DNA of 64,000 nucleotides from Odiellus spinosus. Its lineage: Eukaryota > Arthropoda > Arachnida > Opiliones > Phalangiidae. A program made the translations under genes and the position numbers. Location of the stretch: contig OY987229.1 of NCBI GenBank assembly GCA_963920705.1, positions 20,217,728 to 20,281,727 on the forward strand, written 5' to 3'. Each line of letters opens with the position of its first letter. The first letter of the stretch is position 1. A model generated the notes under the pieces. The model worked only from the letters and a program-made list of their open reading frames with translations, ran no database searches and had not been told where the DNA came from. Positions 998-31,849 of this stretch are shown here, in pieces.

Positions 998-2682
998 ATG
1001 CATTCTGCCATTGAAATAATAATAGGAATTTTAAAGATATTTTATCGCATCTTGGAGCATTGGTTTCTTTTGTGTATTCCGAAACATTTAAAATGTAAAG
1101 ATGTCAAAAATGACGTTGTTTTAATAACTGGAGGTGAGTGTTTTTAGAGATTAAAATTTTAAGAAAATTGAATGATCCAAATGATCTGACGTTTTTTTTT
1201 AATAACGGTATGAAGGTGGTAGCGGTATGGGACGATCCCTGGCTCAAAAATTTGCAAAATTAGGCTCCAAGGTCGTTGTTTGGGATGTTAATGAGCAAGG
1301 TAACGAAACAACGTGTCAACTGGTGCGTCAAGCCGGGTCAGAGGCGAAAGGTTACCGGGTTGACGTTGGTAATAGAAAACAAGTTTACGAGACTGCTCTG
1401 AAAGTTAAGAGAGATGTCGGTCAAGTTACCATCTTAATAAATAATGCCGGCATCGTTTTTGGTAAGGGAATTTACATTTTTTTACCGACTTTAATGATAT
1501 TTATCATCAGCCAATGATTTTTCGAAATGAAACTCAAAATTTTCCTTCAGCCTGAGGGTTTAGACGTTTAAATCGAGTCGTATTTTGACGATTAGCATTG
1601 TCAAGGTTAGTAAAGAGACGGGTTAAGCAGGCTCTGACGTCAATGATTAAACCAAGGATCCTTGATTAAACGACCTAACTGATTGGATTCTGGACTTGGA
1701 TTACTAGCCAACGATATATGGGTCAAGTAGTATTTTTGTCATATTGACTGCTATCTTTTGATTTTAAGTAAGCTCTTAAGTAACCGCGTTTGGATTGCCT
1801 TCAGAGCCGGCTTAACGTGTCTCTCATGCATTAGCTTTGAGCATTATTGGGCTCGTCAAAATGTAGTGCTTGGTTATCAGTAAGGGTACACTTGGGCGTA
1901 CCCGGAACAGAGGCATCGACATTAACCCCCTGTCTAATTTAAACTGTGTGTTTATAAAGGGTCAAAGTTAGATTATAGATTCAAGGGTTTAACGTTCTTT
2001 TTGGGTTGGTGGAAACGTGTCAGTTTTAGGGGTTTACTAGATAATTTTGAAGTTAATAGTACATGATCATTTGCTTATGGCTGAACGAATGTTTTTCACC
2101 AAAATTGATTCTTTTCGCCTCGATAATTATGAATTAGGTAAGAAATTATTGGATTTGTCGGACGATGGTATCGAAAAAATCTTTCAAGTTAACACCATCA
2201 GTCACTTTTGGACTTGCAAGGCATTTTTACCGGACATGATGTCGCGTAACTATGGTCACGTGGTAAATGTGGCCAGTGTAGCTGGTCACGCCGGTTGCGA
2301 ACAATTAATTGATTATTGCGCTACAAAACATTCCGTGGTCGGTTTTAGCGACTCGTTAGCGACAGAATTGAATTCCAACGGTTACGACGGTATCAAAGTG
2401 ACCTTAATATCTCCGTCAGTGGTCAATACTGGACTATTCGATGGCTTGAATACCTCTATCCCGCCTCTTGAGACTGATGAGGCCGCTAGTAAGATAATGG
2501 ACGCCATATTAACAAACCAGAGCGTGGCTGTCATACCTTGGTATTTGAGTTTTGTTATTATGACGAAAGCTTTGCTACCGACTGAAGCCTTCGTAGCTGT
2601 GATGGAATTACTGGGCAGTAAAGGGGCCATGAATAATTTCAGGGGGAGACGTACCGTTCGAAATTCTGGTTCGGATTCATAA
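998..2682 (+). CDS. SDR-1: SDR16C-like retinol/steroid dehydrogenase, 3 exons
   Basis: Coding exons are 998-1133, 1216-1461 and 2138-2682, giving 308 residues. Both introns are GT-AG and phase 1. An N-terminal hydrophobic stretch (about residues 5-28) ends in a Pro-containing IPK turn and should anchor the protein in the ER or lipid-droplet membrane. TGGGSGMG (44-51) is the dinucleotide-binding loop, and Asp69 after VVVW suggests NAD(H). NNAG is at 121-124. The catalytic set is Asn146, Ser174, Tyr187 and Lys191 (YCATK). The NFRGR tail motif is shared with SDR-2. The family oxidises or reduces retinoids, steroids or fatty alcohols; the substrate cannot be read from sequence. The ATG at 998 begins a short exon with no long frame of its own. 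It was chosen because it supplies the membrane segment and joins in frame to the glycine motif. SDR-1 is the first gene of the tandem array. Confidence 0.9.
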
Positions 2683-2779
2683 TTTTAAACTATATCATTC
2701 GCTTTTTTTTATTGTAAATCAAAGATAGTCGTTACCACGGATTGTGAGAATTTTTGTTTCTTAATTGTGAAGTATTGAA

Positions 2780-2785
2780 AATAAA
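2780..2785 (+). promoter_or_regulatory. Poly(A) signal candidate for SDR-1
   Basis: AATAAA lies about 100 bases after the SDR-1 stop codon, a normal distance for a cleavage/polyadenylation signal. In AT-rich DNA the hexamer also occurs by chance. Confidence 0.5.
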
Positions 2786-2831
2786 TAATTAAAATTCTAG
2801 AAAATTAAATTTGTTTTCTAACGAGAGTTCC

Positions 2832-2906
2832 CTACACTTGAGAACTCAGGTGCATAGTTTGAAATCAATGCTCTGTCCAAGTTGAACACAGCGAACTCAA
2901 GTGTAG
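2832..2906. repeat. Small fold-back repeat, family K
   Basis: CTACACTTGAG at 2832 is matched by its reverse complement CTCAAGTGTAG ending at 2906, so the segment can form a hairpin. Related sequences built on CACCTGAGTTC or GAACTCAGGTG occur near 18192-18290, 29610 and 50840-51410, so this is a dispersed family. The rest of 2913-3676 holds nothing I can assign. Confidence 0.55.
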
Positions 2907-3676
2907 AGCGATTTCAATGGTGTCTACCTACTCTGTTTCCGATTGGGTTGTATCAGAAGTTATTTCCTTTTGCCTCAATGCTGTAAATTTAGAACAAATC
3001 TTTACTACAAGGAAAATTACGTTAGGAGATATCTAAATTCCCGTTTTCACGGAAAATAGTTTTTGCCTTGAAAATAGTTCGCAATAAGCCGGATAGAAAT
3101 GATTATGAAATTTGCAGATCAAAAACCTTTTCACTCAACTCCCTCATATCGTATTGAAGGTCAATTTTAAATTAAAATTACCCAGTTAGAAATAATGATG
3201 AAAACGGAAATTATTTCAATGTAATACGATTTTTAACAAAGTTTCCTTTATTCTGTTGTAATTTTAACCACATTTTATATTTCAAAACTTGTATGTCGGG
3301 CGCATATGCTTTATAATAGCGTAGTAGTAAAAACATGGCATTCAATTTATTTTCTCTTCGATAAAACACTCAATCTCTTATTCCTCTCGCGACGCTTAAC
3401 AAAAATATATCAATCCTAATTATTGTGGCGTAATCTAACTTATACATTGTGCTCTAGCTCTTGAAACTAACACTTTATCTAACTCAGATTAGCGGCCGGG
3501 GATAAAGTTATCCAACAGTCTAGTGCAAAAGTCTAAAAAGTTACGGAGGCCCCGTCGTGTTGTTATTCAAAAGTTACGAAGATAGTTTAGGTATCTGCGG
3601 CAAATCATTTTCAATTTTAACCTCGTCAAAAATCTTAGTTTTTAATTTTAATTCTAATTATTGAATATTTTTAATC

Positions 3677-5214
3677 ATGGCCAATGTCGTCCATATTTTA
3701 TTCGGTATAGTTAGGTTAGTTTACGCGCTATTGGAATCTATCGTGTTGTTGGTAATACCTAAGCAACTTAGGTACAAAAAGGTATTGTACCCACTACTTA
3801 TTTGACCTTCTAGAGTATTCATTCGATTAATTCATAATAAACGAAAATAGCGTGATGAATAGTTTACTTATAGCGAAAGGTTTAAGTTCAGTCCAATTTT
3901 TAATTATCAAAAAGGTGGACAAAGATATCGTTTTGATAACCGGTGGTGGAAGTGGTCTCGGTCGTCTGCTAGCTCAACGATTCGCCAAGTTAGGGTCGAC
4001 GGTAGTTGTCTGGGACATTAACAAAACCGGAAATGACGAAACGTGTAAGCTGGTGAAAGAAAATGGAGGCAAGATTAGCGGATACATTTGCGACGTTACC
4101 GACAGGAAGCAGGTCTATTCCATGGCCGATAAGGTCAAAAAAGAAGTTGGTAAAGTTAGCATTTTGATCAACAACGCTGGTCTCGTTGGTGGAAAACGAT
4201 TGCTGGATTTACCGGATGAACAAATTGAAAAGGTCTTCAACGTCAATACTTTATCTCATTTCTGGACTTGTAAGGCGTTTTTACCCGACATGATGGTGTC
4301 CGGCAAAGGACACGTTGTCAACGTGGCTAGTATGGCAGGATTTTTTGGAGTCGAAAAGTTGACTGAGTATTGCGCCACGAAACATTCAGTGTAATTTTTT
4401 TGGTTTCAATTTTGTTTAATGTTCTTGATGCTTCTGTTTGCTATTATCCTTTTATCTCCATGGCGTACCTCGTTTTGTCGGCCTGTTTTTAGTTTTAGAT
4501 AATTCAGCGATGGAAATAAGTATCATTACGTCCCATAACATTTTCACTTACGAGAGGGAGGGGGGTCACTGGACATTTCAAAATTTTGAGGCGCCCAAGG
4601 CACGTCTCTCCTTTAGTTAAGGAGGAGGAGGGGGCTTACCCACTTCCGCCTATTTACTTCTGCTTTTAGTATCTAAACACAAGGGAAGATTTGGTTCTTC
4701 ATAAGCTAGCCACGCTTATTAACTCCTAGTGTGAAACTTACGTCGCTAAGTATACCTTTACAACAACTAATCAATTTGAAATCATCCCAGTTTGGGTTTC
4801 ACGGAATCTTTAGTAATGGAACTTCGTTACGGAGGTTATCCAAATATCCATTGTACCGCCATATGTCCCGTGTCTATTGACACCGGTTTCTTTGATGGCT
4901 TCAAATTTGGACCAATCCCAATGTTGAAACCGGACTACGTAGCGGACGAAGTCGTCTCGGCTATTCGCGTCAACCAGAAAATTTTGTTGTTACCGAAGTA
5001 CATAGTCCTTCTTGTCATGGCCAAAGCCCTATTTCCGGTAGAAATGGGTTTGGTACTTGCCGATATATTCGGAGCCGGTGAAGCCACCAAAAATTTTCGT
5101 GGCCGAACAGCGGTCAATTCGGGAGCGGAAAAAAATGGAGAGTCCTCAGGTCAACGTGAAAATGGACAGCAGCAAAGAAATGGTGCCAAAAGTGGTTCGA
5201 AGAAGGCCAAGTAG
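3677..5214 (+). CDS. SDR-2: SDR16C-like dehydrogenase, 3 exons, basic C-terminal tail
   Basis: Exons 3677-3781, 3915-4390 and 4791-5214 give 334 residues. Intron 1 (133 bp) is phase 0 and lies six codons before LITG. Intron 2 (400 bp) is phase 2, just after YCATKHSV. A membrane segment covers about residues 5-28. TGGGSGLG is at 44-51, Asp69 (WDIN) suggests NAD(H), NNAG is at 121-124, and the catalytic residues are Asn146, Ser174, Tyr187 and Lys191. Numbering is identical to SDR-1 through the catalytic core, so the two are close paralogues. After the shared NFRGR motif the protein carries an extra tail of about 35 residues rich in Gly, Asn, Gln, Ser and Lys. It ends in KKAK, which fits the KKXX COPI retrieval pattern if the C-terminus is cytosolic. 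Splice sites were set by frame and paralogue alignment; the second acceptor restores HSV-LGFTES. Confidence 0.9.
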
Positions 5215-5595
5215 ATACAACAATTACTATTATAATCGCGGGCTCTACGTCATAGCCGAGATGCCTGAAGATGGTGTCTGATTGGTTATTAATATTATTA
5301 TACGGATTATGAAACGCAACGTGGATTTTACGTGTATATTTTAGGATTATTCTATAGGTTTTCAGTCACGTGATATAACCATATGTAGGGAGCTAACAGT
5401 CCTGAAATTACAACGTCGACCCTAGAATATTTCCTAAGGAGTTTATATTCCCTTTATGTACGCTAAGCCTGTAATATAAAATAACGTTGCGTTTCACTAC
5501 CCCTTGAAATTTGAAAACTTTTTAAAATCAAAAACGCGTTTAATTTTTTATTGAATACCAATTAATTTATACCAACATATATTTCAAACGTTTGA

Positions 5596-5601
5596 AATAA
5601 A
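5596..5601 (+). promoter_or_regulatory. Poly(A) signal candidate for SDR-2
   Basis: AATAAA lies about 380 bases after the stop codon of SDR-2 and is followed by an A-rich run and a TG-rich stretch. It is the first canonical hexamer I found downstream of this gene. Confidence 0.4.
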
Positions 5602-5997
5602 AAAAATGTGTTTTCTCCAATGGACTCGGAAATAGAAAACAAATATGAAAATATAATTTTAAGTACTGACGTCTGTTGTATGTGGAAATTAATGAAATAT
5701 TTTTTATTAATTTTTTCTTCTTAAAAATTTATCGAGAATTTGGTATTTGTTGTGTAAAAATAGAACTTAATATCTATTCCGATTTTAAAAAAAAGTTTAA
5801 TAATGAGTAGGTTTTCAGTTCATATTTTTTACTTCAGGTGGCGAAAGCTCCTCTAAATTCGATTGTATTTTTCAAGCAGCCGGGAAGATTTAGTCTTTTT
5901 GATTTCCAAATATTTCAGTGTCAAATTTATTACCGATTTTAGTGTTTTAGTTCGATTGTGAATTTTGGACTGTCATCTTTTTTTCGAACGACTTTGT

Positions 5998-6587
5998 TTA
6001 AGTGCCTTGATACAACAGTGTGCTTGAAGATTGGAATCTTAATGAAGTGGAATTGTCAGTGTTTGTCAAGGTAGAATTTGTTTTAATATCTTTGTTAGGC
6101 CTAACCGAAGTCTTAAATTTTCTTGTGGGTTTTTTCGTGGAGGGTGGCGCGCCATTGTAATCTGGCATCTCAGAGACAGAGTCTGTCTCGTTGGATCCAC
6201 AAACACAACGGGGGGTTGTGGAATGTCCGTAACTAGTTGATCCTTCATTACCTAATTTCCCTCCAGTCTTATCTCCGCCCATGGAGGGGACAACGGACTG
6301 TTACCCTGTACACGAAAAACCACCCCGAGTAGACGCCTACCAGCCATTTTAGGTTCCTTGGTAGCACAAAACGTTTTTGTAACTTCAGAATTGCGTGACA
6401 CCACGAACCATGTTGTTATGTATACCGGCCAAGAGTCACTGTACCACGCAGCAGGGGAAAATAAGCTTCCTAAAGACGCTATACGCTTTCTGAATGTTAC
6501 CCAAATTCCCTTGTGTATATTTGTTAGGGTCTGTATTTCTGGTTTTAGACTTTTAACTGGTTTTAACTTGGAAGATAGTAGTAGGAT
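5998..6587. other. Unassigned block with overlapping open frames
   Basis: This stretch is less AT-rich than its surroundings and stays open over 90-160 codons on the minus strand and about 80 on the plus strand. The minus-strand frame at 5998-6282 encodes a Ser/Thr/Asn-rich peptide containing CVCG. I do not recognise a family. It could be a decayed retroelement piece or an exon of an unknown gene. No splice or start evidence supports a real gene, and the longest minus-strand frame runs into the family E transposon at its right edge. Confidence 0.25.
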
Positions 6588-6924
6588 CAGAAGTAGATGA
6601 AACCCTCCTTTGAAGTCTACTACTCCAATGTTCCATATAGCGCTCCTCTCTGTATGGGTAAAATTCCCAATTTTACGAGTTAGAAGGGGTCCTACTTCAT
6701 CCCCCCTGTCTACGGAAAATTGGAAATTCTCTCTCTCCACAAACGACGACGTTTTTTTGACGAACTCCGAGGCTGCTAGAGATATTCGCTCGACGAGCTC
6801 ACGCTCCGAAAATATCTACCGTTAGGAGGCGTACGGATCGCGCCTTTTGAGAATAACCCATACAGAGAGGGGTAGACAAGACCCGGGAGTAATAGACTTC
6901 AAAGGAGGGTTTCATCGGCTTCTG
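6588..6924. mobile_element. Family E MITE, copy 1
   Basis: A 337-bp terminal-inverted-repeat element runs from CAGAAGTAGATGAAACC to its inverse ending in GGCTTCTG. It is flanked by the exact 7-bp duplication GTAGGAT (6581-6587 and 6925-6931). It encodes no transposase; the open frames inside are by-products. Other copies are at 39184, 45303 and 49191. Confidence 0.85.
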
Positions 6925-6931
6925 GTAGGAT

Positions 6932-11489: not shown

Positions 11490-12482
11490 ATGGGTGAAAA
11501 AGAAACCCAAGATGGTGTTTGGATAAACCTGGTAATCAACGCGCTAGTTACTATTTACCTTTGGTTGAAAAGTATCGTTATGGCATTCGTTCCAAAACGG
11601 CTTTATTCCAAAGACGTACGGAATCAAATTGTACTGATAACTGGCGGTGGCAGCGGTATCGGACAATTACTGGCCATTCGTTTCGGTAAACTCGGTTCCG
11701 TGGTGGTCGTATGGGACGTCAATGACGCTGGTATGAACGAAACTTGCCAATTGGTGCGTCAAAATGGTGGCACCATTCACAAGTACGTTTGCGACGTAAG
11801 CGATCGTAAAAACGTCTACGCCGTCGCTAAGTTGGTGAAGGAAGAACTAGGCGTAGTGGATATCCTGATTAACAATGCCGGAATCGTAAACGGCAAGAAA
11901 TTCTTGGACATCGACGATGACATGATCGAAAAGGTTTATCGAGTCAATACCATGGCGTCATGTTGGACGTGTAAGGCGTTTTTACCAGATATGATTGAAC
12001 GAGATCACGGGCATTTGGTCTTTGTGTCGTCTATGGCTGGAATGACTGGCGCGTCTCATTTAACGGACTATTGCAGTTCGAAATACGCCGTTGTTGGCTT
12101 CGAAGAGGCGTTGAGATTGGAATTGAGAGGTTCGGGTATCGAAGGAGTCAAGAGTACTTGCGTATGTCCGTATTTTACGAATACGGGACTGTTCCACGGC
12201 GTCTCAACCGCCATTTTACCATTGTTGGAACCGTCTTACGTTGCCGATTGCGTCATGAATGGCGTATTGACCAATCAGGCGTTTGTTCTGGTGCCGTGGG
12301 CGATGCTCGGTTTGTTTATTTTAAAGATAATGTTGCCCGTCCCTGCCCAGTACTCTTTGTACGACGCTGTTGGTGGAAAGACTTTCATGGACAATTTTAC
12401 CGGTCGCTCGGATTTGAAAATCGAAGAAAAAAAACCCAATGGACTCGTGAGTCACGATTCGAGGGAACGAATCAAGTGTTGA
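11490..12482 (+). CDS. SDR-3: SDR16C-like dehydrogenase, intronless
   Basis: A single uninterrupted frame of 330 residues starts at the first ATG before the membrane segment (about residues 11-35). TGGGSGIG is at 51-58, Asp76 (WDVN) suggests NAD(H), NNAG is at 128-131, and Asn153, Ser181, Tyr194 and Lys198 (YCSSK) complete the catalytic set. The N-terminus is seven residues longer than in SDR-1/2. The C-terminus after NFTGR is a charged tail ending in IKC, the same last three residues as SDR-7. It belongs with SDR-1 and SDR-2 by the WDVN and VNT signatures. The absence of introns contrasts with those two; it may reflect a retrocopy or an intron-poor ancestor. No obvious poly(A) tract or flanking duplication marks a recent retrocopy. 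Confidence 0.92.
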   Translation: MGEKETQDGVWINLVINALVTIYLWLKSIVMAFVPKRLYSKDVRNQIVLITGGGSGIGQLLAIRFGKLGSVVVVWDVNDAGMNETCQLVRQNGGTIHKYVCDVSDRKNVYAVAKLVKEELGVVDILINNAGIVNGKKFLDIDDDMIEKVYRVNTMASCWTCKAFLPDMIERDHGHLVFVSSMAGMTGASHLTDYCSSKYAVVGFEEALRLELRGSGIEGVKSTCVCPYFTNTGLFHGVSTAILPLLEPSYVADCVMNGVLTNQAFVLVPWAMLGLFILKIMLPVPAQYSLYDAVGGKTFMDNFTGRSDLKIEEKKPNGLVSHDSRERIKC

Positions 12483-15693: not shown

Positions 15694-15697
<4 letters not shown>

Positions 15698-15899: not shown

Positions 15900-16663
15900 A
15901 ACCCAACAACAAGTGAGTTTTTTTATCGATGTCTTATCGTTTAAATAAACCTAATCTACCAGTAAAAAAATTACGCTAGAAATAAATTTAAAACTTACCC
16001 GGAAAATAGGCTTAGCTGGATTGAAAGTCTCACGGAGATCTCGCATTTGCTTATTGGTCGCTTACCAATCATTGTGAAGAAATTTAGGATATCCACGAGT
16101 CCAGCCAGAGGTATATAATAACCCCCTTCGGGGGGAAGTATGAAAGGTAGGCAAAATCGACGAACAACGAGTGCCCGGCGTAAATCGCGGCGGATCGACA
16201 CCGCTTTACTCCCAAAAAATAGTTACACCATTTTGAACCTCACTAAATTTTCCCTACGCACACTTACGGAACTCGCGAGCTGAAGTCAACCTTCGACTCC
16301 ATTTTAACAGACAGCCTGACTCCTGAGACAGGAAGTTCTAAACACAAATCGAGCCGTCTTGTTTATACAAAGACCATTTACTAGAGGAGCGACATTGAGA
16401 AATCCAGCGCGAGCTAGTGGCCTAGACAGTCAGCAGCGGGCTCTTGTTGTTCGTGATTTTTAGCATTGGTAGTATAGGGGCTTTCATACTTCCCCCCGAA
16501 GGGGGTTATTATATACCTCTGGTCCAGCTAAGCCTATTTCCCGGGTAAGTTTTAAATTTATTTTTAGTTAAATATTTGTTTGTAATTTCTTTTTACTGAC
16601 CAGTGGATTAGGCCTATTTAAAATGATAAGGGAACTTCTTGTCAGGTTGCATTCTCCCTTTAA
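15900..16663. mobile_element. Family B MITE, copy 4, split by a family A element
   Basis: The left arm runs 15900-16105 and the right arm 16522-16663, ending in CTCCCTTTAA. Between them sits family A copy 1 with its own target duplication, so B was present first. The arms carry the usual AGGCTTAGCTGG and CAGCTAAGCCTAT pair. Confidence 0.8.
16106..16521. mobile_element. Family A MITE, copy 1
   Basis: A 416-bp element with inverted termini of about 40 bp that start CAGAGGTATATAATAACC and end with the inverse. It is flanked by the 7-bp duplication GTCCAGC on both sides. The terminus includes CCCCCTTCGGGGGG, itself a small hairpin. There is no transposase; the short open frame across 15995-16201 is a by-product that recurs in other copies. 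It sits inside family B copy 4. Confidence 0.9.
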
Positions 16664-18375: not shown

Positions 18376-18793
18376 CAGAGGTATATAATAACCCCCTTCG
18401 GGGGGAAGTCTGAAAGGTAGGCAAAATCGACGAACAACAAGTGCCCGGCGTAAATCGCGGCGGATCGACACACCGCTTTACTCCCAAAAAATAGTTACAC
18501 CATTTTGAACCTCACTAAACTTTCCCTACGCGCACTTCCGGAACTCGCGAGCTGAAGTCAACCTTCGACTCCATTTTAACAGACAGCCTGACTCCCGAGA
18601 CATGAAGTTCCAAACACAAATCGAGCCGTCTTGTTTATACAAAGACCATTTACTAGAGTAGCGACATTGAGAAGTCCAGCGCGAGCTAGTGGCCTAGATA
18701 GTCAGCAGCGGGCTCTTGTTGTTCATGATTTTTAGCATTGGTAGTATAGGGGCTTTCATCCTTCACCCCGAAGGGGGTTATTATATACCTCTG
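18376..18793. mobile_element. Family A MITE, copy 2
   Basis: A full-length element in the same orientation as copy 1, with termini CAGAGGTATA and TATACCTCTG. It is flanked by the 7-bp duplication CTTGTAA. Confidence 0.9.
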
Positions 18794-20208
18794 CTTGTAA
18801 GTATTCTTTTAAATCTTCCAGGAATCAAGTTAGAAGTAAAATAGAAATTAACTTAACAGAGCTATCTATGACACTAGTAAAATTTTCCAATTATAGTATT
18901 TGAAATTTAATTATTTTCTAATATAATTAATTTAATTAGAGTATATGATAATTTTAATTTAACCTTAAATTACGGTGAATTAAATATTATCGCGATGAAA
19001 ATTAGTTTTGGGAATAGATGGAGATACCTTTCTAGCGCTTAAAGAAAATTCTAATTTAACTGAAGTTACGGGACGTGTTTCAAAGGACAAGTCTTACATT
19101 TTGGTTCTCAAAATATTGAAAGCCATAAAATAAGAGCAAAATAGTCCAAAATCGTCGAGTTATGAATTAAATTTAGTACTTAAATTAAATAGGAAATATC
19201 TTTATATTTAAATCGGTGAAATGATATATAGATCGATGTGACGTCACTCTAACTAGAATGTTTCTTGAAATCAACGACAAAAGGGGTTAATCCACCTGGT
19301 GGGAAAATGTAGAAATAAAACGTGTCTCTTTTACCAATCACTCAGTATTTATTGCACTCTGATTTAAATATTTACTCGTGACGTCGAGTCTATGGGGGAT
19401 TAGCTAAAGTTTTCCATATTAAGAATCATTTTCCTCTTTATTCGTTAAGAATGACGTAAAAGTGATAAAATTACGCATGCGCGAAGTTATATTTTATATT
19501 GCCGAAAAAAAGAACCGCTAAGATTTAGTTGATCTCATTAGAATATCTTTTACATCAAATTTAATGATCATGGTGATTAACTTATGATATAATTAAATTA
19601 ATTAACGATACTTCTACTTCATGGTTGAGAAAAACACTTTATTAGAGGGAATATTTTTTACTAAATCAATTAGTGATCCAAACTTTTAATAAACTTTTAA
19701 GTATATTTTTAAATTTTTTAAAGAAATTAATATTGAAACATTTAAAATACATATTGGCATGTTCAAATAAATTTTATAGGCCTTATTTATCATACGTAAG
19801 ACCGTCAAAGGTATTAGATCATAACAAAAAATAAACCTGTACTTTAAATTTTAATTTTTCCACACCATTGAGTTCTTAACTGTTTACCTCGTAATGAAAA
19901 CAGGTTCTTCAAATACGAGATAAAATCAATTTTAGGCTTAGCGCAAATAAAATGCTATTGTAGAGGAAGTATTCAAAATTCAACCCTCCCCTGTTCTTCA
20001 CTGGACTTTGAGGAAACATTTTATCGAAAAACAACCGACTCATTCAACGTATTTAGGAAAAATATCCACTGTTTTATTTGGGCCAGGAATAGTGAAAATA
20101 GATAACGACCAACATAAAAAAAATATACATTAAAATACTGTTTATTTGATATCAGTTTCACTTTCGGACTGTGTCGAAACTGTATCGAAGTTAAACCTCG
20201 CCAAAAAG
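18794..20208. other. Gene-free stretch upstream of SDR-4
   Basis: AT-rich sequence without a recognised gene or repeat. An in-frame upstream ATG for SDR-4 at 20146 lies in it and is discussed under that gene. Confidence 0.45.
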
Positions 20209-21263
20209 ATGGGATTAACTTTTAGAATAATCAAAAAACTATGCACAATGCTTTGTGAAATAGCGTTTAATTTCTTCTACTACTTTGTGCCCTATCGTTT
20301 TCGACGAATGAAAGATTTATCGACGGAAGTGGCTCTCGTAACCGGAAGCGGACAAGGTTTAGGTCGTCAGCTGGCGTTGCGATTGGTTCAAGAAGGTGCC
20401 AATGTAGTTTTGTGGGACGATGACAAAGATGCCTTGGATAAAACGCTGAGTTTAGCCAAAGATTTGAACCCGGAAATGGAAAACGTACGCGTTACCAGTT
20501 ACGTAGTGGACGTCAGTGATCGGACTTCGGTTTACGAAAATGCCGTTAAGGTTAAGAATGAAGTTGGATCCGTTACGTTGTTGGTTAATTGTACCGATGT
20601 CGTCAATGGCCAGAAGTTTATGGAATTAGACGATGAGAACATACTGAGATCGTTCGATACTAACGCCTTGTCTCAGGTTTGGGTTATTAAAGGTACATAT
20701 GCTTTCTTGTCCGAAACTAGGCTTAGCGAGTTTAGGTGTATTTGGGTTTTCAAAAAATATTATCGTCCTTTTTTCCCTAAGCCTTTCTGCCCGACATGAT
20801 GTCACGGGGTACTGGGCATTTGGTCTCGGTACCCGGAAGTTCCGGTTTACTAGGATCGTCAAACTTAGCGGACTACACGGCGGCCAAGCACGCTGTAGTT
20901 GGCTTAATCGAATCTCTACGCCTGGAATTAGCCGTGGAAAAGTACAATAATATCCTAACTACACTGGTTTTCCCGTACTCCACCAACAACGCCGTCTTGA
21001 AACGGTTGTACAACGGTCTCGTTTCGCGAATGGATGACAGCAATATGGCGGACGAAGTTCTCGGAGCGATTAAGAGGGGTGTAATGGTTCATTACGTACC
21101 GGAAATGTTGAGCATCATACTGATGTTCAAAATTTTCGTGACGTCTCGAGCCATTTTAGCCGTTCAAAGGTTACTCAATGGGGAAAGCGCCAATATTAAC
21201 AAAAGAAAAAATGTCTTCTCGAATGATAAACGCGACGCCAAAGTGTTTGAAAATATGCATTGA
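20209..21263 (+). CDS. SDR-4: divergent SDR16C-like protein, 2 exons, altered active site
   Basis: Exons 20209-20692 and 20782-21263 give 321 residues; the 89-bp intron is phase 1 within the Ala of KAFLPD. The start at 20209 places the membrane segment (about residues 5-29) as in its paralogues and has a better context (AAAAAGATGG) than the in-frame ATG at 20146, which would add 21 residues. TGSGQGLG is intact (45-52) and WDDD supplies Asp70. NNAG is replaced by NCTD (127-130). The residue 13 before catalytic Tyr193 is Gly180 instead of Ser (PGSSG). Asn152 and YTAAK (193-197) remain. The frame is intact and the intron is canonical, so this looks like a maintained gene. It may be an enzyme with shifted chemistry or a pseudoenzyme. 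Neighbouring Ser181 and Ser182 could partly compensate. Confidence 0.88.
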
Positions 21264-22082: not shown

Positions 22083-23021
22083 ATGCCTGAAACAGTAACT
22101 CAAATCTCGAAACATTTAATATTATTTCTAATTGAAATAGTTAAAAACGTGTTAAGTTCCCTTATCCCCGATTCGTTCCGGAAAAAAAAATGCATCGAAA
22201 ACGAAATAGTTTTAATAACGGGAGCGGCTAGCGGTATCGGTCGAAGTCTGGCCAATAAGTTTGCCCAACAGGGGTGCAAAGTTGTCCTGGTTGACGTCAA
22301 CCTTTCGGCTCTAATGGAAACGAAACAACATCTGGAAGAAAATTACGGTGCTAACATCGTCTGGTCGTATCAAGTGGACGTCTCTGATCGAAACGCCGTT
22401 TATCGATTGGCCGAAAAGGTTACTCAGGAAGTTGGTCAAGTTGACATCTTGGTAAACAATGCCGCCATCATTGATATTGGTTATTTCCTCGATTTGAAGG
22501 ACGAAAATAGTACTAAATTAATCAATGTCAACTTAATGGCTTACTTCTGGACTACTAAGGCCTTTTTACCGGGTATGGTGGAAAGGGGTCAAGGCCATCT
22601 CGTCTACGTCAGCAGCGCCGCGGCCTTTTGCGGGGTACCAGTTACAAGTACTTACTGCGCGTCTAAAGCCGGTACCGCCTTTTTTTCCGAGGCTATTGGT
22701 CAAGAGATGTTGTATTTGCAATGGAATGGAATTAAAGTTAGTACCGTCTTCCTGTCAGTCGTTCGTTCCAATTTGTACACTGATTTTGTACCGGATAAAG
22801 ACAATATAGACCACGGATTGATACCCCTAATGGAACCCGATTACGTAGCGAATGAAATTGTACAAGGTGTTTTGATTGGACGAGAGAAGATTTACGTGCC
22901 TCATTCCTTGTTCTGTTTTATTTTGATGAAACCTTTTATGAACGCCAAAGCCATGTGGCATTTAACAGCGGCTACCGTTTTTGGAGAGGATCCGAGCTTG
23001 AAACTCAAATTATCGAAGTAA
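22083..23021 (+). CDS. SDR-5: SDR16C-like dehydrogenase, intronless
   Basis: One uninterrupted frame of 312 residues. A hydrophobic N-terminal helix (about residues 10-28) is followed by LIPDSFRKKK, shared almost exactly with SDR-6. TGAASGIG is at 46-53, Asp71 (VDVN) suggests NAD(H), and NNAA (125-128) is a mild variant of NNAG. Asn150, Ser178, Tyr191 and Lys195 (YCASK) are all present. It pairs with SDR-6 as a recent tandem duplicate and more loosely with SDR-7. All three have VDVN or VDVD and VNVNL, unlike the WDVN/VNT group. The predicted product is a membrane-anchored NAD-dependent retinol- or steroid-type dehydrogenase; the substrate is unknown. Confidence 0.92.
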   Translation: MPETVTQISKHLILFLIEIVKNVLSSLIPDSFRKKKCIENEIVLITGAASGIGRSLANKFAQQGCKVVLVDVNLSALMETKQHLEENYGANIVWSYQVDVSDRNAVYRLAEKVTQEVGQVDILVNNAAIIDIGYFLDLKDENSTKLINVNLMAYFWTTKAFLPGMVERGQGHLVYVSSAAAFCGVPVTSTYCASKAGTAFFSEAIGQEMLYLQWNGIKVSTVFLSVVRSNLYTDFVPDKDNIDHGLIPLMEPDYVANEIVQGVLIGREKIYVPHSLFCFILMKPFMNAKAMWHLTAATVFGEDPSLKLKLSK

Positions 23022-23064
23022 TTAGCAAGTAATTAGCAACATTTCTCGGGAATTCTCGCCATAT

Positions 23065-23752: not shown

Positions 23753-24114
23753 TTAGAGAACATTTGTAAGACATAATGTCAGGAATGTCAAATTTTATCT
23801 TGGGCCAGAGCTTTATACACCCTGTGGCATTACTTTCCTTGGTTCGAATCCCCGTTACCATTCCCAATGGGTGCATTTACATTTTGGCGCGAAAACGATC
23901 TTTAGTCGGTTCCTTCTTAGTTAGGTTATAGTACTCTCTAAACTAAGGCCTGCTTATGCGGATAAACTTAAAAAAAAAAAAGGAAAATCAACAACCAGTT
24001 TTCCCGAGTTTTCCTTTATTATTTTTTATTCTAATCTGATTTTAACGAAAACTTTTCCCTGTTTAAACTTAATAATATATCCAATTTTATTTTCAATTTT
24101 ACTCTAGAAACGGA

Positions 24115-25044
24115 ATGTCGCGTTATTTAGAGTCTCTTAAACATTTAGCTATATTTCTAATCGAAGTATTTAAAACTGTTTATTGGTCGTTAATACCAGA
24201 TTCTTATCGTAAATTGAAAAACCTTGAAAATCAAGTTGTATTATTAACGGGAGCCGCGAATGATATAGGCCGTTTCCTGTCCTTAAAATTTGCTCAGTTA
24301 GGCTGCAAGATAGTCCTGGTTGACGTAGACCAATCGGGACTCAACGAGACTAAAGAATTCTTGGACGAAAGATGCGGAGAAAATATCGTCTGGTCGTATA
24401 ACGTGGATGTCTCTGATCGAGAAGCTGTTTACCTATTGGCCGAAAACGTCACGCGAGATGTTGGTCGAGTTGACATTTTGGTGAACAACGCCGCCATTTT
24501 GAAAGAAAAACTCTTTTTTGAACTGAGTGACGAAGACATTGTTAAGTTGGTTAATGTCAATTTGATGTCCTATTTATGGACTACAAAGGCATTCTTGCCC
24601 AATATGGTTCAAAGTTGTAACGGACACTTGGTCTACATTAGTAGCGTGGGCGCTATTTTTGGTACCCCTTTACATAGCGATTACAACTTGACAAAATGGT
24701 GCGTCGCTGGCTTCGCCGAGGCTTTGGGACAAGAGGTCTTAGTCAAGAATTGGACTGGAGTGGAAATAAGTACCGTTTTTCCATCATTTGTTAATAGCGG
24801 ATGTTACAACCCTGATGGTTATAACGGATTTGTAGGAGCCGCGGAACCGTCTTATGTCGCTGACACCATTGTGCGGGGAATTTTAATTGGTCGAGAGAGA
24901 ATTTACGTGCCTAGCGCTTTGTACGGTGTTGCATTGATTAAACCTTACGTTAGTGTTAAGGCCTTTTATCATTTAAGTTTGGCTGTGGTTGGCTCGGCAG
25001 TTTACCGAGGGCTGTCAGCGTGTAATGACGTCACGAAAAATTAA
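24115..25044 (+). CDS. SDR-6: SDR16C-like dehydrogenase, intronless, altered glycine loop
   Basis: One uninterrupted frame of 309 residues, closest to SDR-5 (shared LIPDS, NIVWSY, WTTKAFLP and GREKIYVP-type segments). The N-terminal helix is at about residues 8-27. The cofactor loop reads TGAANDIG (45-52), with Asp50 where the family has the second conserved Gly. Asp70 (VDVD), NNAA (124-127), Asn149, Ser177, Tyr190 and Lys194 (YNLTK) are otherwise intact. The Gly-to-Asp change adds a side chain and a negative charge beside the cofactor pyrophosphate and could weaken binding. There is no frameshift or premature stop, so it is not an ordinary pseudogene. Confidence 0.9.
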   Translation: MSRYLESLKHLAIFLIEVFKTVYWSLIPDSYRKLKNLENQVVLLTGAANDIGRFLSLKFAQLGCKIVLVDVDQSGLNETKEFLDERCGENIVWSYNVDVSDREAVYLLAENVTRDVGRVDILVNNAAILKEKLFFELSDEDIVKLVNVNLMSYLWTTKAFLPNMVQSCNGHLVYISSVGAIFGTPLHSDYNLTKWCVAGFAEALGQEVLVKNWTGVEISTVFPSFVNSGCYNPDGYNGFVGAAEPSYVADTIVRGILIGRERIYVPSALYGVALIKPYVSVKAFYHLSLAVVGSAVYRGLSACNDVTKN

Positions 25045-25161
25045 ACTTTCCATTTAAAAATATATATTGCACTTCCACGAATCACCTTATTATCATTTCA
25101 CTGAAATTTTTTTCATTTTATGTAGTTTTTTTTTTTTTTTTTTGTAGCATTTCAATCGAAA

Positions 25162-25463
25162 GTACAAGCAAGAAGGATCAGACAAGGAGAGGAAAAGTAG
25201 GGCTGCGTTGAGTTAGAGAGAGAAGAGCCACCCTCCCCGGGTGGAAAGGGGGATAGGAAATTCTCGAGGTAAACTGTTGTCACGTGGTCACTAGCGTCGT
25301 TGGCTACTACGAAGCTGATAAAGGATCCGTTTTACCCACGTGACAACATTTTACCACGAAACATCTCTACCCCCGTTCTCCCAGAGTGGGAGTTTAGGCC
25401 GACGCAGTAGGAACTGCGCCGTCCCCACTTTTCCTCTCCTTGTCTGATCCTTCTTGGTACAAG
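25162..25463. mobile_element. Fold-back element L
   Basis: The left arm starts AAGAAGGATCAGACAAGGAG and the right arm ends with its inverse CTCCTTGTCTGATCCTTCTT. The inner arms also pair: GTTGTCACGTGG against CCACGTGACAAC. The arms are about 120 bp and mispaired in the middle. I see no second copy in the window. The sequence from 25464 to 26032 holds nothing further. Confidence 0.7.
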
Positions 25464-26032
25464 ACATTCCGTCCTTGGCTTCCTTCGAACTAAATATATC
25501 TCTATCAAAACGTTGATCAAAGTCTATCTTATTTCGTCTTAAAATTATACCAGAAGGTAATATCAGGAGAAGTTCTCGCTGAAGCTTTTCTTACGTATCA
25601 AGTGTCTTTACACGTATTATTGGCTTTTTCGAGAGAGCTACCGATGCAATTTGAATTTCCAATATTAGTGGCACCCTCCTCCTGTTATTTCATTCTGCTG
25701 TTATCAAAGTCTTAATTTCAACTTTCAAAAACTCACTTTTAACGAATAAGAAGCCGGTTTTCTACGGAAGAAGATGTAGTTATAAAGTGTATCTAAATTG
25801 AGTAAATCAACGAAACGTTGTTTGAATCTAAAATTAAGTCTAAATCCAGTTTTTAACTCTCTTATAGAATTTAATTGCCTATCATTTTGGTATTCAAGGA
25901 CAACCTTATTTAACTTAACATCTTGCATTCAGCGTTAGTTCGCTCGATACTTCTTAAACGATTGTTTCAGAGTTTATTTAGATAAGTTGAAATCTTAACC
26001 AGAATTTAGCTAGAAAAAAAAAACTCGGTGAA

Positions 26033-28114
26033 ATGGATAAAATATGGGTTAATTTTGTGCATTTTCTGCAATTTTGCTTCGAGTTGATCAAAGTTATTCT
26101 CATAAGTTGCGTCCCAAGTCGTTTCTTAACCAAGAAAAGTGTTAAAGGTATGGCAGTGACGTTTTTAATTCATATTATAATAGCTATAATTATGTGTAAT
26201 ATGTTAAGTTCATGTTGCCAAAAGGCAATTCGATTCATTTCATTCATTCTATAAGCCTGAATAATTTTACAATAGACGAACGTTATCGAATTACTTTTTT
26301 CTACCATTTCTCTACAAAATAGATCCCTTAACTTCTCTAGGGTTAAAATTTCGCGTACAGTGGTTGGCTGTTACTGCTTTTCTTGTGTGGCCCCTGTAGA
26401 ATTGCTAGAACTGTACTACTTCGGTGTCTAGGGTGAAAACTACACACGAGGACAGGCTGGCCTATAAAAATGTTAGAACAGTATTATTTTGGTGAAGACC
26501 AAACATTTGAGCAGATATGTAATTAGTTCTAGAATACTTAAATGACATTATATATTTATAATTACTTATATACAATAATATGTGGACCAATTATTTAATT
26601 TGATGTACATTATAATAAATTTTAAATTAGTAATATTCTACATACGTTAAAATCACGCTAAAACGAAAATTTTCTTCCATTTCAAGATGAATTAGTTCTG
26701 ATCACTGGTTCTGGAAGTGGAATTGGCCGTCTTCTGGCTTTGAAATTCGCCGAATTAGGGAGTAGATTAGTTCTTGTGGACGTAAATTCTATTGGAAATC
26801 AAGAGACTTTGGATTTAATACAGAAACACCACGGTAATTTAGCCACCGCTTACGAATGCGACGTGTCTGACCGCAAAGCCGTATACGAGTTGGCCAAGAA
26901 TGTCACCAAAGATGTGGGAAATGTTTCCATCTTAATTAACAACGCCGGTATCGGAATGGGTGGTAAATTATCGGATATAACAGATGAAAAGATTGAATTG
27001 GTGAATATATACGTTTAACCACAAATTATATTTACAACAAAAAATCAGTTAGGAGAACTGCTATGCAGCTTTGCAGGTAAAACTGCGTAACTAGCCAATC
27101 AGCTCTGGCGAGCATTGACGTCAGACCACCAACCCGACACGGGTATATATCCCTTCCATGAAAATAGAGAAGGATTATAAGATATAGCTTATATAGTTCA
27201 TTTATCTATGTCGCCACTAAAACTGTATGTTCTGGATCAGGTGAAAGATGGTTGGCTTCCAGGGCAATGACGTCATTTAATACGTCACCCTTATGATGTC
27301 TGATATATTCAGCGAGCGCCGGAAATTTAAATACTCAGTTTTAGGTAAACTTTGGCTAAAATGGCTGTATAGTTTCTATAGTAACAGGACAACTACCGAT
27401 TGAAATTGCATTAGAAAAATCTAACTGATTTCTTGTTGGCGTCAGGAGTAGGCTATATCCTAAGTGTAAATTTCAAAGGGGGCCCAAATTTTAAATCGAT
27501 AGGGGCTTGATTAAATAGCATAGGCCATATAGGCCCCAAAGATTTAGTATAGTTGGAAAAAATGCTGGCGCCGCCACTAGATACAAAAATATTAAAAAAT
27601 GTAAAATATACTCCACAAGGTCATGAATGTCAACCTTTTGGCGCAATTTTGGACAGTCAAGGCGTTTTTACCTTCTATGAAAGAGACCAACCACGGTCAT
27701 CTGGTTCACTTATCTTCAGCAGCGGCGTTAATCGGTATCCCTAACATGGTAGAATACTCCGCTAGCAAATACGGCGTATTTGGATTATCGGAAGCTCTGA
27801 ATTTAGAACTTTTGAACGATGGTTATGATGGTATTAAAGTTACCACAGTTTGTATGGCACCGATAAAAACGGGTTTACTCAACTACGAAGATGACGGACT
27901 AATTCCAATGTTAACCCCCACCTACGCCGCCGATTGTATCCTTCACGGTATCTTGTTGGATAAAGAAATCATTTACGTGCCTAGATTTATATATCCAATG
28001 TTATATTTTAGAGCGCTGGTTAGTCGCAAGGCAGCCTTGCACGCCATAAAGGTCCTGGGCGGCAATGGATTGCTTAAACAAGTGAAATTTAGGAAACCTT
28101 CCATAAAATGTTGA
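26033..28114 (+). CDS. SDR-7: SDR16C-like dehydrogenase, 3 exons
   Basis: Exons 26033-26147, 26687-27000 and 27620-28114 give 307 residues. Intron 1 (539 bp) is phase 1 inside the Asp of KDELVLITG, and intron 2 (619 bp) is phase 0 between EKIEL and VMNVN. A membrane segment lies at about residues 5-27. TGSGSGIG is at 45-52, Asp70 (VDVN) suggests NAD(H), NNAG is at 123-126, and Asn148, Ser176, Tyr189 and Lys193 (YSASK) are all present. Its sequence groups with SDR-5/6, yet those are intronless, so introns were gained here or lost there. The C-terminus ends in IKC, as in SDR-3. Splice sites were chosen by frame and by matching the paralogues; alternatives would break conserved motifs. Confidence 0.9.
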
Positions 28115-28151
28115 TTCAAATTTCAGGTTTAATGGTAGACTCATTTCTATA

Positions 28152-28597
28152 GAGGTCGGGGTATGGACATGATAATTCTAATTATTTTATCTTTATTGCA
28201 ATAACAAAAGTCTATGACTTTATTCCATAAAAGTAAACAACGCCCCGTAGCTTAATACTATCAGCAAAGGTCCGGGAAGATTCTGATCCGAGACACTCTA
28301 GCGGCCGCAGTCGGTGTAAATATTGAAATTTGAAGCGCCACTCTTTGGAGAAATTCCGGAGTTGGGAGGGAAGACAATATAGCCAAGAGCGGCCCGCCTA
28401 AATTCTATCCCTCTCTCCCTACTCAAATATCGAGGAAGAGTCCAAATCATTTTAGCCAGACAGGGATGATGACTTTTTATGTAAAACTGTACCTTTGCTG
28501 ATAGTATTAAGCTACGGGGCGTTGTTTACTTTAATGGAATAAAGTTATAGACTTTTGATAATAATTAACTGATTCTCCAAATATTTGTGGACCTCTA
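28152..28597. mobile_element. Family C element, copy 2, interrupted by family D
   Basis: The left part GAGGTCGGGGTATGGACATG and the right part AAATATTTGTGGACCTC match family C copy 1. A complete family D element (28205-28557) is inserted between them, so C is the older insertion. Confidence 0.7.
28205..28557. mobile_element. Family D MITE, copy 2 (complete)
   Basis: A 353-bp element with inverted termini of about 65 bp: CAAAAGTCTATGACTTTATT and its inverse ending ATAGACTTTTG, with GGGGCGTTGTTTACTT and its complement inside. The GC-rich core contains AGCGGCCGC. Flanks GCAATAA and ATAATAA agree at five of seven positions, a possibly decayed 7-bp duplication. Confidence 0.8.
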
Positions 28598-29317
28598 CAT
28601 TTTTTTCAACCAAAGGCGAGTTCTTGGGCGTAAGTTCAGCGGGTATACCCAATGACATTAGAAGGTTATGCAAATTGTGGAATGATGCCAGTGAGAAATG
28701 TTACGTAGCTATGACTTCGATCATTCTGAAACAGGCTTAGAAGTAATACAAGTCAAAAACCAGTTTATTAATTGTTTAAACCAGTTTTTTTTAATCAAAA
28801 ACTGATGATCACTGGTTCCCAGGGGACTAGTTTATTAATTCTAATATTAAAGATATATATTCACATATATTAATCGGACAAATTTAGTATTCAAGGCACT
28901 AGAACTTAAAAATAATTTCTATGGGCATTACAAGTTTCGACAATTGCGAATTCTGGTGTACAATTTATCAGACCTCTTTGTATTTTTAATGAAAACCTCT
29001 AGATTTCCAAAGACTTCGAACCCAAGGTAGATATCTGAACCCAGAGTGTCGGCCTCTATGCCAGCAGCTAGTTAAGGACCCACCGAACTAGTCGTTTAAC
29101 CACTAGAACTGTCTTTGATTACATGATGTATGTAAGTCCCATCACTTGAATCTTTCCCCACTTGGTCTATGGTGAATAGGCCAACCGAGTACTGTCAAAA
29201 AATAAGCATTTGCATTTTTATCTCGAGGCACAAATAATCCGTAAGGTCAAAAACAGATTATATTTCTGGTAAGGTTAATGGCCGTGGTGTAACCGAGTGG
29301 GTAGGCTCACTTGACTT
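28598..29317. other. Spacer with a tRNA-like A-box
   Basis: There is no gene here. At 29282-29310 the sequence TGGTGTAACCGAGTGGGTAG resembles the 5' half of a tRNA or the head of a tRNA-derived SINE. It sits directly in front of the 26-bp minisatellite, and no matching B-box follows. Confidence 0.35.
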
Positions 29318-29603
29318 CTTTGACGGTGCTTTGAGCGCGTCATCTTTGACGGTGCTTTGAGCGCGTCATCTTTGACGGTGCTTTGAGCGCGTCATCTTTG
29401 ACGGTGCTTTGAGCGCGTCATCTTTGACGGTGCTTTGAGCGCGTCATCTTTGACGGTGCTTTGAGCGCGTCATCTTTGACGGTGCTTTGAGCGCGTCATC
29501 TTTGACGGTGCTTTGAGCGCGTCATCTTTGACGGTGCTTTGAGTGCGTCATCTTTGACGGTGCTTTGAGTGCGTCATCTTTGACGATGCTTTGAGTGCGT
29601 CAA
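29318..29603. repeat. 26-bp minisatellite, 11 units
   Basis: The unit is CTTTGACGGTGCTTTGAGCG followed by CGTCAT. Eleven units run head to tail, the first eight nearly identical and the last three carrying GAGTGCG or GACGATG variants. Each unit contains TGACG and CGTCA, the two CRE half-sites, in inverted orientation. It lies 1.2 kb after SDR-7 and 0.9 kb before SDR-8. Confidence 0.95.
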
Positions 29604-30469
29604 CTATTTGTACACCTGGGTTTTCAAGAGTCTGCCCTTTTGGGTGTAACTCGTATAAGGTTCATCAAGCCTCGTTTGTTAATGGCCAGTTTTCTTTCCA
29701 TAAAATTTTTACAAGGTCAAAATTAATTTTATCAGATAATTAGACTTATTAAATTCCTGCGGCGTATTTCTCTATTTTTTATTATATTTTTTTGAAGATT
29801 ATCTGTAAAGTTTTAAAGCGAATTATAAAACCATCTGCACAAGGACGTTTTTTTTTCTTCTTTCAAACAGGTTTTAAATATCAGTAAAAGTATTTCTTAG
29901 TAATAAAATCAAAAAGGGGTCATTTTTCCCATGTATTCCCTATAAATCCATAATTTTGACCCACCGACTTCGCGATCTAACGCCATAAAAAAGTTAAAAG
30001 TATGTTTTTAGTCTCTATCTAGTAGATTTTGACTTGTAATAAGGATTAAGCAAGGTCGTTCCCTGGTTTGGTAACGCTACCAAGTTAATTCTGAAAGGTC
30101 TTCAGCTTTTGTTAATGCTGGAAATTTCTGTTGATTCCCAATATGCCTTGTTGCAAAATGACTTATGTAAAAATTATACACCTTTTGTAGTCTACTGAAG
30201 GCAAGTTATTAGTTAGGAGGAAAAACTTGAACTGGTCCTGATACATCTACACTTTCGCACTATTCAAATTTTCTTCATGAACGAACTAGTGTTGAGAGAA
30301 ATTGAAAACCTGTTTGATTTGAAAAGGGTGTTTTTTCGGCTAAACCTTTTTTATTCGATTTTTGTTTAACCACTTATTCTTCAACAAAATTTTAAAACTC
30401 TCTCTATATCCGACGGAACGCGAGTCAAAAATTCGAATATTATAATAGTAAAATTCGAAGGGGCTAACA
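29604..30469. other. Spacer upstream of SDR-8
   Basis: A family K/J-like piece (GTACACCTGGG ... AGTCTGCCC) adjoins the minisatellite at 29610-29640. The rest is AT-rich with no assigned feature. Confidence 0.4.
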
Positions 30470-31849
30470 ATGGCCAAAGATATTTCGAAAATTATTCAGC
30501 ATTTATTATTAGCAGTATATTATCTATTGGAAACCTTAGTATGGTCTTTTATACCCTTAAAATGGAGAACCAAGAAAGACGTTAAAGGCGAATTAGTTTT
30601 AATTACCGGAGGAGGAAACGGACTAGGTCGAAAATTGGCCATAGAATTCGCGAAATTAGGAGCTAAGATAATTACTCTTGATGTTAATGCTAAGGGTAAT
30701 GAAGAAACTGTCAGGTTGGTGAAAAAAGTTGGAGCCGAAGCTCACGGATTTGTTTGCGATGTATCCGATAGAAAACAACTTTATAAAACTGCCGAAATAA
30801 TTAAAAGTCAAATAGGTGAGTTAATAATTACGCAATTACCTAACTGATTACAGCCTTTGGTAATGCTAAATAAGTATTCAGTTACGTAATCACTTTAGTA
30901 CAGTCAAAGAAGCAGGCTTGAACACCGAGGAGTGATCAGCCCCTCGATGAATCTGAACAAGACAATTTATTTTGAAATGTAGCGTATACCAGAATTTAAA
31001 AGAAAATTCTACGTTTAATGCCCGTTTCTCGGTAGAAACCTGCCGCCAATGAACAGACTCGATGATTTTCTTTTGTATTCTTGGTCCTATAGATTTGGGT
31101 TTAACACTAATAGCAAGAGTCTATACATTAAAAAGAGTATGCCCAAGATGCTATACTCTGAAAAGTTCAGAGCTCGTCGAGCTCTCTCTCACCCCTTACG
31201 CCTAAATTGGCCTAAACCTCCAAATTAAAGTCTAACAATCAATTTCGCAATGTTAGGTACAGTAACTATATTAATTAACAACGCTGGAATCGCCATTTGT
31301 AAGACGTTACTTGACCTAGAAGACGATGACATTCAACGCGTATTCGACATAAACAGCGTGGCTAATTTCTGGACGGCCAAGGCATTTTTACCGGACATGA
31401 TCAAAGCCAATCACGGACATATTGTCAACATGTCCAGCATTAGTGGAATCTTTGGTGTTGACTTATTTCCGGACTATTCTTCTAGTAAACACGCTCTGAA
31501 TGGATTTGATGAATGTCTTAAATTGGATCTGATTCGTCGAGGTTGCGACAATGTACACACGACCTTGGTTTGCCCTTTTCTGATTCGGGGAGGACTTTTC
31601 GACGGATTTTACGACGGAGTGGTCAATATTTTGGACACCGATTACGCCATTGAAGAGATAATGTTGGCGATTTTGACCAATACGGAGGTCATGTATTTAC
31701 CAAAACTTCTCTACGTTTTGACCTTTTTACGGCCCATTATTTCCAGGAAAACTTTGTACTATTTTCAGAACTTTGCGGCTGATAGAGGTTTAGCGAATAA
31801 CGTGGTTGTTAGAAAGTTTAAATCAGACGAAGATGTTAACGTAAATTAA
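30470..31849 (+). CDS. SDR-8: SDR16C-like dehydrogenase, 2 exons
   Basis: Exons 30470-30815 and 31257-31849 give 312 residues. The 441-bp intron is phase 1 in the Gly of SQIG-TVTIL, just before LINNAG. A hydrophobic helix lies at about residues 8-28. TGGGNGLG is at 46-53, Asp71 (LDVN) suggests NAD(H), NNAG is at 123-126, and Asn148, Ser176, Tyr189 and Lys193 (YSSSK) complete a normal active site. It is the last gene of the array; the next gene is unrelated. The start codon is the first ATG before the membrane helix, in a good context (AACAATGG). The substrate is not predictable beyond the retinoid/steroid/lipid-alcohol range of the family. Confidence 0.92.

Follow-up and report, generated by a model that had tools for sequence, protein, structure and literature searches.

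Eight tandem SDR16C genes of Odiellus spinosus with eight private intron positions and without three introns shared by other animals

The 64-kilobase (kb) stretch of Odiellus spinosus DNA analysed here, called the window below, is animal DNA with a G+C content of about 35% and carries, at 998-31849, eight complete SDR16C (RDHE2/HSD17B11-13-like) genes, S1 to S8, arranged head to tail on the + strand. These genes hold eight introns, each at a position private to one copy, and all eight genes lack three introns that are shared among SDR16C genes of other animals. We infer that an SDR16C gene without introns probably founded the array, that it was duplicated in tandem, and that most of the introns were then gained copy by copy. 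The ancestor would have lost introns common to many phyla, most simply by retroposition or by replacement mediated by complementary DNA (cDNA), and this loss perhaps preceded the formation of the array. Tandem duplication of the intronless gene would have produced the eight paralogues, and most of the eight introns would afterwards have been gained singly, in single copies, across five gene lineages.

With the eight GT-AG introns (i1 to i8) removed, every gene forms one frame from ATG to stop, of 307-334 amino acids, and internal stops are present in 0/8. The genes are as follows, where P numbers are protein records and percentages are identities.

998..2682, + strand: S1, SDR16C-like gene, 308 amino acids, three exons (open reading frame after removal of i1 and i2; orthologue fragment P0251, 75%)
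3677..5214, + strand: S2, SDR16C-like gene, 334 amino acids, three exons (spliced open reading frame; orthologue P0045, 68%)
11490..12482, + strand: S3, SDR16C-like gene, 330 amino acids, intronless (single open reading frame; Pfam adh_short 9.7e-49; orthologue P0001, 72%)
20209..21263, + strand: S4, divergent SDR copy, 321 amino acids, two exons (spliced open reading frame, i5 removed)
22083..23021, + strand: S5, SDR copy, 312 amino acids, intronless (single open reading frame; Pfam adh_short 2e-49)
24115..25044, + strand: S6, SDR copy, 309 amino acids, intronless (single open reading frame; Pfam adh_short 7.9e-39; 55% to S5)
26033..28114, + strand: S7, SDR copy, 307 amino acids, three exons (open reading frame after removal of i6 and i7)
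30470..31849, + strand: S8, SDR copy, 312 amino acids, two exons (open reading frame after removal of i8; orthologue P0103, 74%)

Intron positions are numbered by residue and phase on P0034, a full-length RDHE2 of Apteryx that serves as vertebrate reference; a slash between letters marks the junction, and lengths are in nucleotides (nt).

1134..1215, + strand: i1 in S1, 82 nt, phase 1, within TGG/GSG, reference 44/1 (GT-AG, frame and paralogue alignment)
1462..2137, + strand: i2 in S1, 676 nt, phase 1, NNAGIVF/GKK, reference 127/1 (GT-AG and frame; P0251 departs exactly here)
3782..3914, + strand: i3 in S2, 133 nt, phase 0, YKK/VDKDIVLITG, reference 34/0 (junction colinear with P0045)
4391..4790, + strand: i4 in S2, 400 nt, phase 2, ATKHS/VLGF, reference 193/2 (junction colinear with P0045)
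20693..20781, + strand: i5 in S4, 89 nt, phase 1, WVIK/AFLPD, reference 155/1 (GT-AG and frame)
26148..26686, + strand: i6 in S7, 539 nt, phase 1, KKSVK/DELVLITG, reference 36/1 (GT-AG and frame)
27001..27619, + strand: i7 in S7, 619 nt, phase 0, DEKIEL/VMNVN, reference 141/0 (GT-AG and frame)
30816..31256, + strand: i8 in S8, 441 nt, phase 1, KSQI/GTVTIL, reference 113/1 (junction colinear with P0103)

All eight introns occupy distinct codon and phase positions in the alignment, the closest pair being i3 and i6, which lie 7 nt apart. They are distributed over five genes (S1, S2, S4, S7 and S8), with none in S3, S5 or S6. A first-pass annotation of the window had proposed eight tandem SDR16C-like paralogues, three of them intronless, and eight introns with no common position; the gene models confirm this, and its list of introns was right in substance. 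No additional SDR copy was found elsewhere in the window by tblastn with the eight proteins (best E 0.67).

The eight proteins resemble the SDR16C family (RDHE2/SDR16C5, SDR16C6, HSD17B11 and HSD17B13), which contains their closest sequence relatives, in having equal length and in carrying YxxxK in all eight copies. The adh_short domain (PF00106) exceeded the curated cut-off in 3/3 genes given to Pfam (S3, S5 and S6). The nearest-relative search was made with S3, for which the best solved relatives were HSD17B13 (1.3e-68) and HSD17B11 (1.5e-66), ahead of other SDRs, and the named protein matches mostly SDR16C5/RDHE2 and SDR16C6; the other seven were placed in SDR16C by alignment and tree. In contrast to the family, the window genes are tandem, in at least eight copies, and S4 and S6 deviate in core motifs. 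NNAG is present in five of the eight copies, with NNAA in S5 and S6 and NCTD in S4; the column of the catalytic serine is changed in S4, and the glycine motif (TGxxxGxG) is altered in S6. S4 forms the longest terminal branch of the tree, being far more diverged than the other copies, and, lacking NNAG and the usual serine, may be a non-catalytic copy.

Several of the junctions are corroborated by orthologues. The full-length records P0001, P0045 and P0103, recovered in the protein search with S3 and closest to S3, S2 and S8, respectively, have open reading frames of about 1 kb within contigs of 1.2-1.3 kb, which suggests that they are cDNA. P0045 spans i3 and i4, P0103 spans i8, and both are free of indels at these junctions. 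The fragment P0251, matching S1 over its 146 amino acids, is colinear with it until NNAGIVFGK at the i2 donor and then diverges, which is what read-through into the GTAAG donor gives; its colinearity over the i1 site fits either splicing there or a relative in which i1 is missing. If P0251 is cDNA, i1 would have been spliced and i2 retained, and if it is genomic, the relative would be without i1. Either way, i2 predates the split of the two species. The junctions of i5, i6 and i7 are predicted from GT-AG borders, frame and paralogue alignment. The duplications that built the array should be old, since the copies are only 30-55% identical to each other. The description of the intron gains as recent in the first-pass annotation is not supported, in view of this pairwise identity and of the presence of i2 in the S1 orthologue of another species.

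Intron positions in other animals were read from the ends and joins of protein records, used as exon probes; edges were read in 55 records chosen from 235, and all 235 were covered by a profile scan. Many vertebrate records end at reference 232 or 274, and P0161, P0162 and P0167 join 232 to 275, as does the spider record P0188. Records ending at 274-276 come from horseshoe crab, bee, annelid, amphioxus and acorn worm. P0216, P0218 and two fish records leave the family at 185, a vertebrate site, and scattered records have further edges near 171, 177, 181, 190, 195-210 and 226. For human HSD17B13, the available portion of one report describes an isoform B without peptide 71-106 (PMC10449848), and that of another a difference of 108 base pairs between products with and without exon 2 (PMC13101278). 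These accounts, as far as they go, place the borders of exon 2 at 70 to 71 and 106 to 107, which were mapped to the reference via the alignment, and S1 to S8 have neither border.

A third shared position emerged from a query with a 116-amino-acid N-terminal alignment, which admits only proteins of about 64-203 amino acids and for which 120 of 5328 matches were listed, 116 of them new. Among the matches listed, 91/116 new fragments run to W151 and continue with V and unrelated residues, a proportion not to be read as a frequency because the length limit favours breaks near W151. In 62 of these 91 the reading is VS, as expected of TGG/GTRAGT. The rest of the 116 listed comprise three that stop at W, eight that continue into the next exon, seven with another residue or a wrong motif and seven in which the motif is absent; P0259 and P0255, in the last two groups respectively, likewise break at W151 and were missed by the pattern. 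Named among the 91 listed are Trichonephila spiders, the oribatid mite Oppiella, penaeid shrimp, an ant, two birds and a lemming, and a land snail record among the matches listed stops at W151. The spread over many phyla suggests that the intron between W151 and T152 is old. In contrast to the family, all eight window genes read through this site (151 to 152) and through those at 232 to 233 and 274 to 275.

Frames without these introns are also found in other records. P0012, P0020, P0021, P0024, P0027, P0044, P0083 and P0089 each consist of one frame reaching from reference 1-6 (30 in P0089) to 302-303 and sit on contigs of 6-34 kb, and the shorter frames P0130 and P0212 also extend past 151. 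If the eight near-full-length records are plain open reading frame calls on genomic DNA, intronless SDR16C genes would seem to exist outside the array. Loss of the shared introns would then not be unique to the array and an intronless ancestor not far-fetched; this ancestor may predate the array.

The first-pass annotation had left the choice between gain and complementary loss undecided, noting that gain needs fewer events if the ancestor was intronless. The count agrees: with each intron in a single copy, eight gains compare with 25, 31 or 28 losses under Dollo parsimony on three topologies, hand-written after the trees. An ancestor carrying all the introns would moreover have had exons of 7 nt (i3 to i6), 24 nt (i6 to i1) and 10 nt (W151 site to i5). 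Sweeping replacements by cDNA would reduce the number of losses needed and leave such tiny ancestral exons no less odd. The low count and the absence of the shared introns favour gain, although older positions that have slid may account for some of the introns. We found no exact match to any of the eight window positions among the sampled outgroup edges, a partial sample in which i2 recurs only in its own orthologue P0251. The mapping of positions on outgroups that had been proposed thus turned up none of the eight, with near misses at i7 and i5 and with the qualification that it was made on protein ends.

A number of observations weigh against an intronless founder followed by gain. The outgroup positions derive from protein ends and not from annotated genes, and breaks before about reference 60, the region of i1, i3 and i6, are hardly sampled. 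P0335 departs from P0031 after reference 140, reading S-K-L-I-Y, which fits A/GTAAG at 140/1, 2 nt upstream of the i7 position, and P0273 joins 153/154 to 189/190, 1 to 4 nt from i5. All eight introns lie within the first 63% of the coding sequence, which has a chance of about 0.02 if positions are uniform, and such placement is also expected under 3'-biased cDNA-mediated loss. Finally, S3 with P0001 and the long-branched S4 are placed apart from the other copies in the more careful of two trees, with weak support. More than one founder of the array would call for more than one reset, unless all founders descended from an older intronless gene.

The bearing of the trees on the number of founders is as follows. 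In a quick tree of 127 rows the eight genes were scattered, its starred branches forcing four changes, with orthologues of the window genes treated as outgroup members. The careful tree had 54 rows, namely the eight genes, three orthologues and 43 outgroups chosen from 351 records, and it united S1, S2 and S5-S8 with P0045 and P0103 in one clade (80/91). Forcing all eleven genes into one clade costs 5 log units and is not rejected (p of the approximately unbiased test, p-AU, 0.38). The notion that the array is not a clade, raised by the 127-row tree, was dropped, as the clade is not rejected once the orthologues are included. A single founder is thus allowed by the data, and not demonstrated.

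Of the alternatives, a mixture in which some introns are older sites slid by a few bases and the remainder are gains is unlikely in our judgement. The candidates would be i5, from the site between W151 and T152 (10 nt) or one near 154, i7, from 140/1 (2 nt), and i3 and i6, both from one N-terminal intron. P0335, which fits an intron 2 nt from i7, and P0273, which joins near 154, speak for such sliding, as do the WVIK of S4, where the other seven copies have WTxK, 10 nt from the shared site, and the separation of i3 and i6 by 7 nt. A fused spider record, P0003, passes from HFWT to ILITG at its join and hints at a spider intron near LITG. Yet an exact match is missing at every position, P0335 and P0273 are each one record read by eye, and sliding by 2, 7 or 10 nt at constant protein length requires paired changes at both ends. 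By our estimate, near misses are in part expected by chance given many sites in 900 nt. Other distances are of the same kind: i4 lies 25 nt from the vertebrate site at 185 and a few nt from breaks at about 195 in P0132, P0177, P0180 and P0219, and i7 lies 10 nt from a break at about 144/1 in P0262, read by eye. On balance, most of the eight are probably gains after a reset, and sliding may explain i5, i7 or either i3 or i6.

A second alternative is an intron-dense founder that carried all eight introns together with the shared ones and underwent nearly complementary losses, partly by 3'-biased cDNA-mediated replacement. We consider it quite improbable. It does account for the position of every intron at or 5' of reference 193, as left by 3'-biased loss, and for the wholly intronless S3, S5 and S6, as from replacement of whole genes, and frequent intron loss is described for amylase genes in the part of PMC3096672 available to us. 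The 25, 28 or 31 losses and the ancestral exons of 7, 24 and 10 nt given above argue against it, as does the lack of an exact match to the eight positions in the partially sampled outgroups.

The introns themselves were examined for traces of their origin. A 9-nt in-register repeat, CAAAAAGGT, stands at both junctions of i3, and the in-register runs at the introns' own junctions measure 5, 6, 9, 0, 3, 3, 3 and 5 nt for i1 to i8. Donor and acceptor contexts of the same intron match more than mixed ones (mean 4.25 versus 3.32 nt, permutation p 0.006). Runs of at least 9 nt are found in 575/199773 GT-AG pairs drawn at random from the window. The junction repeats were ruled out as proof of break repair, since mixed donor-acceptor pairs often reach 5 nt (18/56). 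At the start of an intron, likeness to the exon that follows it slightly exceeds likeness to the corresponding exons of other introns (p 0.02), and the same holds for intron ends and the exon that precedes them (p 0.04); these tests are exploratory, because the likeness was first spotted by eye. The lowest values among the 16 single tests belong to the end of i1 (0.007), the start of i7 (0.015), the start of i4 (0.02) and the end and start of i5 (0.05 and 0.07). An origin by copying of exons was rejected as a general rule, low values being confined to i1, i4, i5 and i7, and none of the eight introns is a clear copy of the neighbouring exon. A tblastn search of the introns with SDR proteins gave a best E of 0.067, taken as chance. 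The exon-like stretches and junction repeats are suggestive in that they fit break repair or small exon duplication, without showing either.

One may speculate further that introns were acquired anew, independently in at least five tandem copies of a single intronless founder, through local events in the DNA such as break repair at short repeats or small exon duplications, a proposal that we hold to be doubtful. The array would then offer a graded series of gained introns, some with traces of their origin (the repeat of i3, the exon-like ends of i1 and i5), which is likewise put forward only tentatively. An introner, that is, a mobile intron-forming element active in the genome, was rejected as a shared source and is very unlikely: several inverted-repeat elements lie nearby, i2 holds an internal inverted repeat (1614-1644/1794-1824) and i8 about 89 nt of a dispersed repeat (30862-30949, with a copy at 63867-63949 on the other strand, 76% identical, blastn E 1e-12), but these repeats stop short of the splice sites, and no two of the eight introns share sequence at E up to 0.1 within the window.

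The surroundings of the array hold other features. A pair of elements resembling miniature inverted-repeat transposable elements, at 16105-16522 and 18376-18795, are 96-98% identical and have terminal inverted repeats of 41-42 nt, and the first is flanked on both sides by the arms of a larger inverted repeat. Tandem arrays are present at 29317-29602, 40526-40998, 47474-48279 and 52192-53059, with units of 26, 23, 29 and 30 nt, respectively; the 23- and 29-nt units have AAAAGGTCAGGGAA-like text in common with arrays at 54008 and 63039. Directly downstream lies a MITF/TFE gene, seen in open stretches at 33671-33898 and 34459-34752 with an intron before VQTLLENP. Its Pfam values are 3e-13 for 34459-34752 and 0.0009, below Pfam's cut-off, for 33671-33898. 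A motif scan for the DNA-binding part of this MITF-like neighbour found only the SRTN exon on that gene. The border at VQTLLENP presumably corresponds to the start of vertebrate MITF exon 2, and if it does, an ancient intron has been retained elsewhere in this genome; a literature search with the peptide returned no paper. An Rfam search gave no match.

The origin of spliceosomal introns is still open, partly since only in few cases of gain is an intron-free homologue at hand for comparison. In this array, copies of one gene with and without introns adjoin, and introns common to many relatives are missing from every copy. At the position of any given intron, seven unsplit homologues therefore serve as a baseline. 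Near species could date each intron event. Among the literature matches listed, none dealt with intron evolution in SDR16C genes, and none was usable for their intron positions.

It is in other gene families that parallels are found, and the introns of the array share some traits with those attributed to tandem genomic duplication or break repair (PMC3443670, seen in part): the two junctions of an intron are more alike than mixed ones, i3 has its 9-nt repeat, and i1 and i5 have exon-like stretches. In contrast to the introns described in that part of the source, the signals here are weak and a clear exon copy is lacking. A close parallel is the alpha-amylase of animals, for which the accessible text of PMC3096672 gives a likely intronless ancestor, resets and frequent gain and loss, with paralogue-private intron positions inferred in Daphnia. 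The array resembles it in the probable intronless ancestor, the resets and the private positions. According to the same text, close amylase copies generally share their structure, whereas here no position is common to any two of eight tandem copies. The alpha-amylase of basidiomycetes is similar in being an intronless gene that was filled with introns within an intron-rich genome, as far as can be seen from PMC3584928. It differs in that its founder came by horizontal transfer from bacteria and its rate of gain was high in that account, while the founder of the array most likely derived from a retrocopy or from cDNA and the window genes hold 0-2 introns each. The view taken in the first-pass annotation, that the array is a good natural system for intron gain, is fair, but intronless ancestors, resets and private positions are already described for amylase in the portions of PMC3096672 and PMC3584928 considered here. 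By this analogy the array would be a useful but not unprecedented case, as amylase genes behave alike, and the parallel suggests that gene families in general may undergo a reset of introns and later refill.

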